This document shows positions 14,915 to 21,519 of a DNA stretch of 22,642 bases, piece by piece. Source of the DNA: a virus; IMG/VR virus record IMGVR_UViG_3300048837_000868, positions 1 to 22,642 of that record; one strand, 5' to 3'. Under the pieces are notes generated by a model. That model was not told the DNA's origin. It did no database searches and worked only from the letters and a program-made list of their open reading frames with translations. How positions within the stretch are numbered: the stretch's first letter is position 1; each line of letters opens with the position of its first letter. The translations under genes were made by a program, and so were the position numbers.

Positions 14915-15160
14915 ATGTTGCAGGAAGAGCGCCGGGACGCATTGGTTCAAGCCGCCAGGGCGGCGCCGTCGCTGTTTGCAGTGGTGGTGACGAAATTCAT
15001 GGACCTGCCCGTTGAGAAGTGGTTGGCCCTGTCCGGCATCGGGTTCATCGCGTTGCAGGGCGTGCACTTGCTCTGGCGCTGGAACCGCGACTGGCGGCGC
15101 GAGCGCGAGCGCATCGCCGCGGGCCGGCCGCCGCCTGAGACGGACAGGGGTGAACTGTGA
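14915..15160 (+). CDS. Small one-TM holin candidate
   Basis: The 81-residue product has one hydrophobic helix (about residues 35-52, LALSGIGFIALQGVHLLW) followed by a strongly basic tail (RWNRDWRRERERIAAGR), and lies immediately before the endolysin. This fits a small holin that opens the inner membrane at lysis. I prefer ATG at 14915 to TTG at 14909, because TAGGGG is about 8 nt upstream. The stop overlaps the endolysin GTG by GTGA. Confidence 0.6.
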   Translation: MLQEERRDALVQAARAAPSLFAVVVTKFMDLPVEKWLALSGIGFIALQGVHLLWRWNRDWRRERERIAAGRPPPETDRGEL

Positions 15161-16461
15161 CGATCCGTGTCACGCCCGATCTTCTGGTCGCAGCGATGGG
15201 CTGCACGCGCGAGCGCGCCGACCGATACGCCGCACATCTGGACGCGGCATGCCTTGCGGGCGGCATCAGCACGGGCATGGCCGGCGTGGCGCGGCTGGCG
15301 CAGTTTCTGGCCCAGCTGGGGCACGAAAGCGGCGCGCTGGTCTACGTGCGCGAGATCGCGGATGGCAGTGCCTACGAAGGCCGGGCCGACCTGGGCAACA
15401 CCCAGCCCGGAGACGGGCGCAGGTATCGCGGGCGCGGCCTGATCCAGACCACCGGCCGGGCCAACTACCGCAAGACGCGCGGGTGGCTGGCAGCCCTGAA
15501 CGTCCGCGACGCGCCAGACTTCGAGGCCGAGCCCGAGCTGCTGGAAACGCCGCAATGGGCGGCCTGGTCAGCTGTCGGGTTCTGGCACGCGAACAAGCTC
15601 AATGTCGTGGCCGACGGCGACGACCTGACGGCGTGCATCCGCGTCGGGCGTGGCGTCAACCGAGGCAACGTCAACGACGCCCGGCCCGCCAATGGCGAGG
15701 ATGACCGCATCAAACGCTGGCGGCGGGCCAGGGCGGCGGTTGCGGCGGCCGCTGGCACACCGACGGCGCAGCAGCAGCCGGCCCCCGTCGTCACGGCGAC
15801 CACGGTGCCGGTTTCACAGAGTCAACCCTCACCGCCGGCTTCCGCGCCGGCACAGGAGCAGAGCATGCCCCCTTCACTGCTGGCTGGCCTGGCGTCGACC
15901 GTCATCAACCTGTTCACCCCGATCGCGGCCGAGAAACTGCGCAAGGAAATCGGGCGCCACACCGACGACTCTTCCGTGGCCGAGCAGCTGACCGCCGGCG
16001 TCATCGACGCAGCGAAGGCAGCCACCGGCATGAGCGACCCGATTCAAGCCGTGGCCGCGGTGCAGAGCGACCCGGCGGCGCTGGAGCGCGCCGAGGCCGG
16101 TGCCATGCAGTCGCTGGACCGCCTGCTGCCGCTGATCGAGCGCATCAACGCCATGGAGCAGGGCAACATCCGCGCCGCGCGCGAGTTCAACGCCGCCGAG
16201 CCGCTGTTCATCGACACGCCCTGGATCCGCATGAAGTTCGTGCACCTGCTGTCGCTGGTGTTCGTCACCTTCTCTGGCTGGTTCGTGCTGGAGAACTGGG
16301 GCTCGCTCACGCCTGAGCTCAAGGGTGCGGTGATCACCCTGATGGTGATCGCCGGCTGGAACGGCGTGCGCGACTACTGGATGGGCAGCAGCAACGGCAG
16401 CGCCGAGAAGACCGCCATGCTGACCAGCGCCGAGGCTGCGCAGCGCCGCCCGGGGGGCTGA
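15157..16461 (+). CDS. GH19 endolysin fused to a 3TM-holin-type C-terminal domain
   Basis: Starts with GTG inside the preceding stop (GTGA). Residues 1-175 form a GH19 (chitinase-like) peptidoglycan hydrolase, with catalytic Glu57 in QLGHESG and likely Glu74 in YEGR, followed by the family block LGNTQPGDGRRYRGRGLIQTTGRANY split across residues 79-104. About 180-235 is a Pro/Ala/Gln/Ser-rich linker. Residues 237-434 are an entirely different domain ending in two hydrophobic helices and YWMGSSNGSAEKT, a hallmark of 3TM-type (GTA_holin_3TM-like) holins. Endolysin and holin are normally separate; here they share one frame. A strong internal start at 15865 could release the holin part. Confidence 0.85.
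   Translation: MTIRVTPDLLVAAMGCTRERADRYAAHLDAACLAGGISTGMAGVARLAQFLAQLGHESGALVYVREIADGSAYEGRADLGNTQPGDGRRYRGRGLIQTTGRANYRKTRGWLAALNVRDAPDFEAEPELLETPQWAAWSAVGFWHANKLNVVADGDDLTACIRVGRGVNRGNVNDARPANGEDDRIKRWRRARAAVAAAAGTPTAQQQPAPVVTATTVPVSQSQPSPPASAPAQEQSMPPSLLAGLASTVINLFTPIAAEKLRKEIGRHTDDSSVAEQLTAGVIDAAKAATGMSDPIQAVAAVQSDPAALERAEAGAMQSLDRLLPLIERINAMEQGNIRAAREFNAAEPLFIDTPWIRMKFVHLLSLVFVTFSGWFVLENWGSLTPELKGAVITLMVIAGWNGVRDYWMGSSNGSAEKTAMLTSAEAAQRRPGG
15865..16461 (+). CDS. Putative holin from an internal in-frame start in the endolysin gene
   Basis: ATG at 15865 is in frame and preceded by AGGAG at 15854-15858 with 6-nt spacing. The product would be 198 residues: an N-terminal amphipathic segment (MPPSLLAGLASTVINLF), a helical middle, TM helices at about 125-142 and 152-166, and a polar end with GSSNGS. 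The sequence matches 3TM-type phage holins. Separate translation is inferred from the ribosome binding site and domain boundary. Confidence 0.65.
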   Translation: MPPSLLAGLASTVINLFTPIAAEKLRKEIGRHTDDSSVAEQLTAGVIDAAKAATGMSDPIQAVAAVQSDPAALERAEAGAMQSLDRLLPLIERINAMEQGNIRAAREFNAAEPLFIDTPWIRMKFVHLLSLVFVTFSGWFVLENWGSLTPELKGAVITLMVIAGWNGVRDYWMGSSNGSAEKTAMLTSAEAAQRRPGG

Positions 16462-16540: not shown

Positions 16541-16972
16541 ATGCGCAAAGCCGCCGCCCACGCCGCCGCCCACGCCATCACCGCCCTGATCCTGGCCGCG
16601 CCCCTGCTGGCAGCGGCCCAGGGCACCATGTACCGCTGCCAGGCCCCCGACGGCAGCCTGAGCTTCCAGCAGACCCCGTGCGAAGCCGGCACGCGCGGCG
16701 GCCAGATCGAGGCCCGCGAGGTGCCCGTGACGACGATGGGCGACAACATCCTGGCCCGGGTCGGGCGCAATGCCGAAACCCGCGAGAGGCTGACCGAGAC
16801 CGACATGGTGCAGCGCCTGGGCCAGCCCAGCGGCCGCAACGTCGACGTCTTCAACGGCGTGGCCACGGTGCAGCATGTGTACCGCTACCCTGACGGCAGC
16901 GTGCGCTACGTCTACACGCGTGACGGCGTGGTGATCGGCGCGCAGGTGCGCGAAAGCGGCCGGCACAGGTGA
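16541..16972 (+). CDS. Secreted DUF4124-domain protein
   Basis: A Sec signal peptide covers about residues 1-26 (basic MRKAAAHAAAH, hydrophobic LILAAPLLAAA, cleavage near AAA-QG). Next is TMYRCQAPDGSLSFQQTPC, the DUF4124 signature with two Cys that may form a disulfide. The C-terminal half has RLGQPSGRNVDVFNGV followed by YRYPDGSVRYVYTRDGVV, resembling the lipoprotein SmpA/OmlA-type fold. It has a ribosome binding site (CTGGAGA) and a CACAAT at 16506-16511 that could be a -10 element. It sits between lysis genes and the attachment site, so it may be a phage accessory (moron) gene acting in the periplasm, or a host gene if a prophage border lies to its left. Confidence 0.7.
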   Translation: MRKAAAHAAAHAITALILAAPLLAAAQGTMYRCQAPDGSLSFQQTPCEAGTRGGQIEAREVPVTTMGDNILARVGRNAETRERLTETDMVQRLGQPSGRNVDVFNGVATVQHVYRYPDGSVRYVYTRDGVVIGAQVRESGRHR

Positions 16973-17120: not shown

Positions 17121-17164
17121 CCGCCGCTGAAACTGGCTGAGAACCGGTGCCACGCTACCACCAG

Positions 17165-17183
17165 GCGGTAGCAGTGCTACCGC
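17165..17183. promoter_or_regulatory. Operator-like dyad upstream of the phage integrase
   Basis: GCGGTAGCA (17165-17173) and TGCTACCGC (17175-17183) form a perfect 9-bp inverted repeat with one central G. A further half-like GCTACC lies about 20 bp to the left. It is about 50 bp upstream of the integrase ATG, where a repressor, Xis or Int arm site would act. TACAGT at 17220-17225 could be the -10 element; no good -35 is seen. Confidence 0.45.
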
Positions 17184-17233
17184 GGACGGATCGGTGTGTG
17201 CGTCGAGTCGAGTTCGCGCTACAGTCCGCCGCC

Positions 17234-18424
17234 ATGGCGATCAGCGTGCAGGAACGGGGCGGGCGGCATCAGCTGCGGGTGACGCACAAGCTTCTGCCGC
17301 GGCCGTTCTTCCACACCTTCGAGACCGCCGACGAGGCCCGGGCCTACGGCCGGCAGCTGCACAGTTTGCTGGAGCGTGGCGTGGTGCCGGCCGAGCTGGC
17401 CGTGCAGGGTCCGCGCCGTGATGACCCGCTGCTGGTGCAGGTGGTGCGGGCGTACCTGCGCACCGCGCCCGTGGCGCCCACCGACGAGCAGCTGCTGGGC
17501 ACGATGCTCGAAGAGCTGGCTGGGGTGCGCGTGGGTCACGTCACCTATGCCTGGGCGGAGGCCTACGTGCGCCGGCTGAAGGTGGAGCGCAACCTGGCGC
17601 CCAGCAGCATTCGCAAGCGCGTGGGGTCGCTGGCCCGGGTGATCGACTGGCACCACCGCACCAGCACCCCCGCCGGCCAGGTGCCGCCAGGCACGGCGCT
17701 GCGGCTGCTGCCGGTGGGCTACAGCGCCTACAGCCGCGTCGACACCGAGGAAGCCGCGGCCAAGGGCAAGGCGCCCAAGCGCGACCAGCAGCGCGACCGC
17801 CGGCTGGCGCCCGACGAGGAAGCCCGCGTGCGCCGTGCACTGGCCGGCCACAAGCGACCGGATCGCGAGCGCGCGCTGGTGGTGGACCCGGAGTTCGTGA
17901 TGCTGGTCGACCTGCTGGTGCACACGGGCCTGCGCCTGCGCGAGGCCTACCGCCTGCGGGTAGGGCAGATTGACTTTGCGCGCCATGTGATCGCCGTGGA
18001 CGGCAGCAAGGGCCACCGCGGGCAGCTCAAGCCCCGCCAGGTGCCGATGACGCCGGCGCTTGAGGAACTGCTGCGCGCCTACTGTCGCGGCCGCGTGGGC
18101 CTGCTCTTCAGCTTCTGGGACGGCCGCGAGGCCTCGCTACGGGCCACCACGAGCCGGCTGTCGGCCCGGTTTGCCAGCCTGTTCGACTACGCCCAGGTAC
18201 CCGACTTCACCGAGCACGACCTGCGCCACGAGGCCACCTGCCGCTGGGTGGAGCTGCGATCGCCCGGGGGCGGCTGGATGTTCAGCGACCTGGAGGTCTG
18301 CCGCATCATGGGCTGGACGGATCCGCGCATGATGTTGCGCTATGCCAGCTTGCGGGGTGAGGACCTGGCCGCGCGCATGCGCCCGGGTGTTCAGGCGCCC
18401 AACGAGGGCAGCGCGGGGGGCTGA
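17234..18424 (+). CDS. Phage tyrosine integrase
   Basis: The 396-residue product is a site-specific tyrosine recombinase. An N-terminal arm-binding-like region (VQERGGRHQLRVTHKL) is followed by a SAM-like core-binding domain (about 65-145) and a catalytic domain (about 190-380). Visible catalytic residues are Arg234 (HTGLRLREA), Lys259 (DGSKGHRGQ), His328 and Arg331 (HDLRHE), Trp361 in the His/Trp position (MGWTDP), and Tyr370 (LRYASL). I chose ATG 17234 over the upstream 17147 because the protein starts there like other phage integrases. It lies next to the tRNA-Cys core, so it very likely acts at it. Its last 34 bp overlap the convergent HTH gene. Confidence 0.9.
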   Translation: MAISVQERGGRHQLRVTHKLLPRPFFHTFETADEARAYGRQLHSLLERGVVPAELAVQGPRRDDPLLVQVVRAYLRTAPVAPTDEQLLGTMLEELAGVRVGHVTYAWAEAYVRRLKVERNLAPSSIRKRVGSLARVIDWHHRTSTPAGQVPPGTALRLLPVGYSAYSRVDTEEAAAKGKAPKRDQQRDRRLAPDEEARVRRALAGHKRPDRERALVVDPEFVMLVDLLVHTGLRLREAYRLRVGQIDFARHVIAVDGSKGHRGQLKPRQVPMTPALEELLRAYCRGRVGLLFSFWDGREASLRATTSRLSARFASLFDYAQVPDFTEHDLRHEATCRWVELRSPGGGWMFSDLEVCRIMGWTDPRMMLRYASLRGEDLAARMRPGVQAPNEGSAGG

Positions 18425-18704: not shown

Positions 18705-19742
18705 TCAGGCGATGGCGTCGAGCGGGCTGCGCACGCCGCTGCGGTGCCGGCCCACGACGTGGGTGTAGATCTGCGTCGTCTCGACGTTCGCGTGGCCCAG
18801 CAGCGTCTGGATGTCGCGGATGTTGGTGCCGTTCTCAAGCAGGTGCGTTGCGAAACTGTGCCGCAAGGTGTGCACGGTGGCGCGCTTCTGGATGCCTGCG
18901 GCCTTGACTGCTGCTCGCATGGCGCGCTGCACGTTGACCTCGTGCAGGTGGTGCCGCCTGATGACGCCGGTACGTGGGCAGGTGGCGTAGCCCGGGCTAC
19001 AGAAAACGAACTGCCATGACCACTCCCGACCGGCGCGTGGGTACTTCATGGTCAGCGCGTGCGGCAGCTCAACGTCGGCCATGCCCTTGGCCTGATCCAC
19101 GTCGTGCAAAACGCGGCGCTCGCGCAGGTGCGCGCGCAGCGGCTGCACCAGGCTCTCCGGGATCATCGTGCTGCGGTCCTTTCCGCCCTTGCCCTGACGG
19201 ATGGTGAGCACGCGGCGCTCAAGGTCAAGGTCCTGCACGCGCATGCGCAGGCCTTCCATCAGGCGCGCACCGGTGCCGTACAGCAGGCGCAGCACCAAGC
19301 CCGGCGTGCCGGTGGTGGCGTTGAGCAGGCGCCGCACTTCGTCCTGGCTCAGCACGGCGGGCAGGTATTTGCTGGCCTTGGCGCGCGTGAGTTCGTTCAG
19401 CCACGGGAGTTCGCAGCCCAGCACCTCTTTGTAGAGGAACAGCAGCGCCGATAGTGCCTGGTTCTGCGTGCTGGCGCTGACCTCGCGCTCGACGGCCAGG
19501 TGGTTGAGGTAGGCCGTGACCTCGACGGAGCCCATGCTGGCCGGATGGCGCTTGCCGTGCCACAGGCTGAAGCGCTTGGCCCACTGCACGTAAGTGCGCT
19601 CGGTTGCAAGAGAGTAGTGCTTCTCGCGCACCTTGCCTGCAATTCGCTCCCACAGGTTGGGTTGTCGAGATAACGGCCGGCGCGTGTCGTCTATTACCGG
19701 AAGCGCATCTGGAATTGCAGGCAATTCAATAGCTTGCGGCAT
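18705..19742 (-). CDS. intI: Integron integrase IntI
   Basis: The 345-residue tyrosine recombinase recombines attI and attC sites. It is separated from ordinary phage/Xer recombinases by the IntI-specific insertion at about 228-268: ALTMKYPRAGREWSWQFVF, then PRTGVIRRHHLHE. Catalytic residues are present: Arg160 (GTGARLMEGLR), Lys188 region (GKGGKDR), His291 and Arg294 (HTLRHSFATH), His317 (LLGHAN), and Tyr326 (IYTHV). The end, SGVRSPLD, is also typical. Length and reading frame are intact, so it looks active. GGAG lies 6 nt before the ATG. It lies only 30 nt after the stop of the first cassette ORF and reads in the same direction, unlike cassette ORFs in usual integrons. No LexA box was evident upstream. 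Confidence 0.93.
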   Translation of the reverse strand: MPQAIELPAIPDALPVIDDTRRPLSRQPNLWERIAGKVREKHYSLATERTYVQWAKRFSLWHGKRHPASMGSVEVTAYLNHLAVEREVSASTQNQALSALLFLYKEVLGCELPWLNELTRAKASKYLPAVLSQDEVRRLLNATTGTPGLVLRLLYGTGARLMEGLRMRVQDLDLERRVLTIRQGKGGKDRSTMIPESLVQPLRAHLRERRVLHDVDQAKGMADVELPHALTMKYPRAGREWSWQFVFCSPGYATCPRTGVIRRHHLHEVNVQRAMRAAVKAAGIQKRATVHTLRHSFATHLLENGTNIRDIQTLLGHANVETTQIYTHVVGRHRSGVRSPLDAIA

Positions 19743-21445: not shown

Positions 21446-21519
21446 GCCTAACACGTCGTTCCAGGGCGACCCGCTACGGGCTGGCGCCCTCCGCGGGCGC
21501 CTGAACTCGGGCGTTAGGC
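21446..21519 (+). other. attC: attC3 recombination site
   Basis: R'' GCCTAAC (21446-21452), 5-nt spacer ACGTC, L'' GTTCCAGG; L' CCTGAAC, 6-nt spacer TCGGGC, R' GTTAGGC (21513-21519); 74 bp in all. The 5/6-nt spacers and the extra C in GTTCCAGG versus GTTCAGG are canonical for a site read on the plus strand. Boxes are near-consensus. R'' has one mismatch against the start of its cassette (TTCGGC). Confidence 0.88.

Follow-up and report, generated by a model that had tools for sequence, protein, structure and literature searches.

The window, by which we mean the whole 22,642-nucleotide stretch of viral DNA that was analysed, contains one open frame of 434 codons (GTG 15157 to TGA 16459–16461) in which an endolysin is joined to a holin, with a candidate ribosome-binding site and an in-frame start codon at the junction. 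The same fusion, with the same start signals, was present in eight other viral contigs, and the lysin halves of the nine fused ORFs belong to unrelated types. In textbook lysis the holin timer and the endolysin blade are separate proteins; here they lie in one polypeptide. We lean towards a two-product gene whose lysin would be tethered by the holin and which would have arisen by stop loss with later lysin exchange.

Domain layout of the fused gene

The frame was open throughout 15157–16461, in agreement with the sequence-only reading, which had described a GH19 lysin, a linker and a holin within a single 434-residue ORF (Table 1). The lysin half of the window matched the PHROG 181 endolysin profile (E = 5.3e-49), and its residues 5–193 aligned with PDB entry 9hnv, a GH19-type endolysin of known structure (E = 2.3e-29); 4ok7 aligned with residues 73–191 (E = 1.1e-11), and PDB chain 9ms7 was also matched. 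The HESG and YE stretches of the window lysin, which we take to hold the catalytic glutamates of GH19, align with 9hnv. No Pfam match to the GH19 domain was obtained in the window. The GH19 assignment stood, and the extent first given for it, residues 1–175, was too short, as the PDB alignment carries the domain to about residue 193. A search with the whole protein matched 1312 phage records, and the 60 matches listed all fall in the lysin half. The anticipated linker is present and comprises about 47 residues; a structure model of the full-length fusion was poor (mean pLDDT of 54).

Table 1. Coordinates of the lysis genes and their signals in the window
Feature	Positions	Strand	Size or evidence
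Small one-TM protein, holin/antiholin candidate, 83 codons	14909..15160	+	PHROG 920 holin, E 1.3e-6
Endolysin-holin fusion ORF, GTG start	15157..16461	+	434 aa
GH19 endolysin domain, residues 1 to about 189–193	15157..15723	+	PHROG 181; PDB 9hnv, 4ok7
Ala/Pro/Gln-rich linker, about 47 codons	15724..15864	+	Translation, codon composition
AGGAG, candidate internal Shine-Dalgarno	15854..15858	+	Found in 9/9 fused loci
In-frame internal ATG, possible free-holin start	15865..15867	+	Sequence; start comparison across fused loci
TeaA-type (3TM) holin domain, 198 aa	15865..16461	+	Separate-gene profile E 2.3e-17; profile-profile 99.4; BLASTP to TeaA

The holin half of the window had no match in Pfam or NCBIfam; the curated cut-off of PF11351, which nothing in the window reached, was passed by a Herbaspirillum relative (L034; 26.8 versus 24.8 bits). 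The window holin alone matched two PHROG profiles weakly (phrog_27280, E = 0.00076; phrog_1544, E = 0.0071, or 0.026 with the full protein), and the fused relative L013 matched PHROG 1544 with E = 6.8e-7. The first relative found, L001, matched TeaA, the holin of Vibrio phage ICP1 (tblastn E = 5e-5 to 7e-5, ∼31%). A profile (A9) built from eight separate-gene relatives including TeaA, with no fused sequence among them, matched the holin part in all nine fused records (E = 9.6e-19 to 1.9e-11), comparison of the fused-holin profile with the separate-gene holin profile gave an hhalign probability of 99.4, and BLASTP aligned the window holin with TeaA directly (E = 4e-9, 22% identity over 148 columns). 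By these sequence comparisons, the window holin half is homologous to the experimentally tested TeaA. Excerpts of PMC7182436 describe a lower proton motive force signal when TeaA was expressed alone, with rapid lysis upon addition of an energy poison, and place TeaA in PF11351 by remote homology.

These family profiles bear out the proposed holin domain. A strict hydropathy scan gave two membrane-like segments in the window holin and between one and three in each of the eight other fused proteins. The "3TM" label comes from the family and not from the window sequence. The model of the holin domain was all-helical (pLDDT 79, pTM 0.47), and a Foldseek search of BFVD with this model yielded no match at E ≤ 0.001; the best was an ORF of Vibrio phage VHML (E = 0.0071), and the third was a "Holin of 3TMs" (E = 0.12). 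The separate one-TM holin candidate expected ahead of the fusion is also present and matches PHROG 920; its stop overlaps the GTG of the fusion, and its start may be ATG 14915. Immediately after the lysis gene, positions 16541–16972 encode a DUF4124 protein (E = 4.9e-7).

Recurrence of the fusion and of its candidate internal start

Eight homology scans of IMG/VR viral contigs (one with the whole protein, then seven with holin-domain queries) gave nine distinct records besides the window, eight of them with a full-length holin domain. In all eight the holin is joined in frame to an upstream lysin, with AGGAG and an ATG or GTG at the same junction, and 157–266 open codons precede the internal start (237 in the window). 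Each of the nine fused records gave one TeaA-type match, and no second lysin of the three families sought (PF00959, PHROG 90 and PHROG 181) was detected in these records, which are fragments. The ninth additional record (L014/L020/L026) retains only the C-terminal part of the holin, in a different frame from an ORF that is lysozyme-like by eye, and was counted apart as a remnant. In L026 (about 1890–2644) this lysozyme-like ORF is followed by the C-terminal stub of a fused-type holin, and another membrane-protein-like ORF (1448–1999) lies upstream, an arrangement that may have arisen when a lysis cassette was replaced and part of it stayed behind.

Elsewhere the yield depended on the query. 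Two scans of bacterial-genome contigs, with queries from the window and L001 only, found no relative; these queries predate the wider family, so bacterial prophages lie largely outside the survey. Among isolate phages, the holins of the window, L010 and L011 gave no match or only weak ones, those of L001 and L013 reached TeaA-type genes, and separate-gene queries matched 184 and 254 records. Plasmids gave one weak match each for the window and L013.

The AGGAG and the ATG at 15865 that had been put forward as a holin start are both present, 6 nt apart, and the ATG is codon 237 of the fusion frame. They form the sole in-frame AGGAG-N4-10-ATG/GTG pair of the window ORF, and it sits at the lysin–holin junction. 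Codon-order shuffles of the ORF predicted 0.19 such pairs, and in 0.6% of the 2000 shuffles a pair lay no more than 5 codons from the junction. All nine fused ORFs have a single in-frame pair, located at the junction, and a pair that close to it arose in 0.2–0.9% of codon-order shuffles per gene; the nine ORFs are related, so these results are not independent trials. The start is ATG in seven and GTG in two, always 6 or 9 nt after the AGGAG, and two extra AGGAG–start pairs (in L010 and L012) are both out of frame. When the peptide was fixed and synonymous codons were redrawn, the motif recurred in 0.21–0.83 of draws per gene; because such redraws recreate it so often, position and recurrence are the evidence here, and codon choice is not. 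The nine junctions were also inspected by eye for a programmed frameshift at the AGGAG, which we set aside as no slippery run common to them was seen.

Predicted pairing with the anti-Shine-Dalgarno sequence was stronger at the internal site than at the presumed full-length start in eight of the nine ORFs, with a tie in the window; the start codons of the long forms are guesses. On this comparison, the fusion product may well be no more abundant than free holin.

Separate-gene relatives and the origin of the fusion

The lysin halves of the nine fused ORFs are of four unrelated types: GH19 in the window, GH24/PF00959 in four (L001, L010, L012 and L033), the lambda-lysozyme type (PHROG 90) in three (L011, L013 and L024), and an SLT-type lytic transglycosylase in L028 (9udh, E = 2.4e-40; PF01464 above its cut-off). 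The L013 half matched PDB 1am7, presumably the lambda enzyme, with E = 2.2e-25.

The sequence-only reading held that its proposal would be refuted if relatives had two separate genes meeting at this boundary. None of the eight close relatives with a full-length holin has them, and all 16 of the distant relatives fetched, ICP1 TeaA included, do; upstream of these 16 holins the frame is open for no more than 48 codons. These 16 loci were picked for diversity from phage and plasmid lists of up to 254 records; the holin of one, L008, is an unannotated ORF. A lysin lies directly upstream of the holin in 11 of the 16, as judged by PHROG match, annotation or eye. Six of the eight upstream proteins scanned matched an endolysin PHROG, and those of L041 and L042 matched phrog_1501, of unknown function. 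Upstream annotations include GH108 (L034), amidase (L007), lysozyme (L008) and peptidase M15 (L044), the lysin-like ORF of L004 appears by eye to be broken, and no annotated lysin lies beside the holin at L005, L015 or L043. The seven closest-spaced pairs are those of L004, L006, L007, L008, L034, L038 and L041: no more than 2 nt separate the end of the upstream gene from the holin start, or the two share 1 nt. The upstream stop in these pairs either falls between a purine-rich site and the holin start or overlaps that start. In the fused clade the site and the start are retained and the upstream stop is gone. The TeaA-type gene of L038 (1995–2543, Xanthomonas phage PBR31) is 61.5% identical to a Herbaspirillum "3TM-type holin" and is annotated as a "putative spanin," probably a misannotation.

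A holin-domain tree was built from 16 rows, nine fused and seven separate-gene, omitting L035, whose annotated start looks late, and L038–L045. The nine fused rows formed one side of a branch with support of 100/100, and some inner branches were not firm. Because separate genes (seven of the 16 loci in the tree) lie outside the fused clade, the fusion reads as the derived state. A long branch (1.5) links this clade to the remaining rows, and the separate-gene relatives closest to it may have escaped sampling. This tree requires at least four lysin-type changes, and four types need at least three on any tree. The simplest history consistent with these sequences is that the lysin stop was lost once at a coupled junction and that the upstream half was then exchanged.

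If a swap lands in frame about one time in three, three or four swaps would all be joined with a chance of about 4% or 1%, assuming independence, and slightly lower once linker stop codons are counted. A stop-free linker by chance had a probability of 0.54–0.94 for each of the six linkers tested; because the linkers are short and GC-rich, the lack of stops is not unlikely alone, and this simple test on six linkers did not show selection against stops. The holin of L001 (4043–4597) seems to be a mosaic of two sub-clades that changes over near its middle, as its columns 1–100 are 81% identical to L010 and 26% to the window, and its columns 101–209 are 27% identical to L010 and 75% to the window.

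Proposed products, precedents and genomic neighbourhood

The fusion, the recurring start signals, the TeaA homology, the separate-gene relatives outside the clade and the different lysin types are seen in the sequences themselves; that both products are made, how they sit in the membrane, how they share the work and in what order the changes took place are inferences. The gene most likely yields two products, a membrane-tethered lysin–holin and a free holin. Initiation at GTG 15157 would give the 434-residue protein, in which the TeaA-type holin would anchor the GH19 endolysin in the inner membrane with the enzyme on the cytoplasmic side, and the full-length product would thus be a membrane-tethered lysin; initiation at ATG 15865 would give the free holin. 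Basic residues precede the second hydrophobic segment and occur in the C-terminal tail of the window holin, a placement that suggests that both ends of a hairpin are cytoplasmic and that the lysin would wait inside on its tether. Long and short forms would assemble together in the membrane, and upon holin triggering, the lysin tethered at the lesion would meet peptidoglycan at once. The gene would have originated from an ordinary lysin–holin pair that lost the lysin stop and kept the holin ribosome-binding site and start, after which the lysin half would have been swapped several times between unrelated families with the frame still joined. The presence of four enzyme types on the same holin frame, with the joint and the internal start kept, points to selection acting on the fusion itself.

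An alternative that we consider unlikely, though the best placed of its kind, is that the long form is chiefly an antiholin. Its N-terminal enzyme would block holin assembly, the long:short ratio would time lysis, and membrane depolarisation would turn these proteins themselves into tethered lysins. In keeping with this, all nine ORFs have two starts for the holin frame, and excerpts of PMC9671378 describe dual-start holin/antiholin genes as established for lambda and P2; against it, the small one-TM gene upstream could itself be the antiholin or the main holin. Taken further, and with equal reserve, the gene could be a one-gene lysis clock in which the endolysin would itself serve as the extension that makes an antiholin of the holin: the long form would poison holin assembly and keep the enzyme at the membrane, the short form would trigger, and a single event would open the membrane and activate the tethered enzymes. 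Unrelated enzymes could slot in because timing would be carried by the holin frame only.

It is rather improbable that only the full-length fusion is made and that the internal AGGAG and start are an ancestral relic or retained linker codons. The motif encodes [QK]-E, a dipeptide compatible with a linker, and the synonymous shuffles often recreate it; all nine ORFs nevertheless keep a start codon 6 or 9 nt after the AGGAG, across linkers that can barely be aligned. Slightly less probable still is a precursor that a protease would cut in the linker into soluble lysin and holin, for although the linkers of several members are rich in Ala, Pro and Gln, the nine show no common cleavage motif by eye, and the six measured range from 17 to 47 codons. 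Two genes joined by an assembly or sequencing error, a concern raised by the sequence-only reading, are for practical purposes ruled out, as eight other contigs carry the same fusion with different lysin halves and nothing was found in favour of an error.

Published precedents are endolysins that end in membrane segments and a single holin–endolysin fusion in the reverse order. Excerpts of PMC7143992, PMC8943055, PMC8879335 and PMC6498227 describe M4Lys, Enc34 ORF39, the Siskin endolysin and LysAP of Acidovorax phage AP1, which share the order of the window protein (enzyme N-terminal, membrane segments C-terminal), and report that the C-terminal transmembrane domain is required for lysis in M4Lys and LysAP. 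The tails of these proteins are one or two transmembrane helices, whereas that of the window protein is an entire TeaA-type holin with a start codon to itself. Homology between the window tail and that of M4Lys, the one member of the group compared, was rejected (hhalign probability of 0.1), and the M4Lys gene has no internal GGAG, AGGA or GAGG with a start at 4–10 nt. ICP1 TeaA (PHROG 1544), the homologue of the window holin half, is unlike it in having a gene of its own, downstream of the antiholin gene arrA, and in carrying no fused lysin. In the natural TpeE-family fusion of Clostridium sporogenes, the excerpted text of PMC9527704 gives the reverse order, holin N-terminal and lysin C-terminal, and a different holin family. 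Endolysin genes with internal in-frame starts include Ms6 lysA and that of phi2638A (excerpts of PMC3111421 and PMC12203907), whose short product is a lysin or lysin isoform; that of the window would be a holin. Titles and abstract openings, in a search with most subscription journals outside its reach, described no N-terminal endolysin joined to a holin that has an internal start of its own, and names of the PF11351 type turned up in a single paper of those searched.

How a tethered enzyme reaches the wall was left open by the Enc34 and AP1 authors in the excerpts consulted. The fused genes offer a clean system for this question, which M4Lys, Enc34 and LysAP raise as well with their N-terminal enzymes and membrane tails, and for whether long and short forms set the time of lysis.

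Towards the right end of the window, a phage-type tyrosine recombinase (17147–18424, + strand) adjoins an integron-type integrase (18705–19742, − strand; TIGR02249, 427 bits versus a cut-off of 265), and this end of the virus record may be a host integron beside a prophage. GTTRRRY was not enriched across the whole window (27 versus 21 expected), and the folds of two other GCCTAAC cores (21791 and 22110) were at chance level (126/200 shuffles) or weak (15/200). Positions 21446–21519 form an attC-like site with GCCTAAC/GTTAGGC ends, the minus strand of which folds at −24.2 kcal/mol, a stability matched by 0 of 200 shuffles (4 of 200 for the plus strand).
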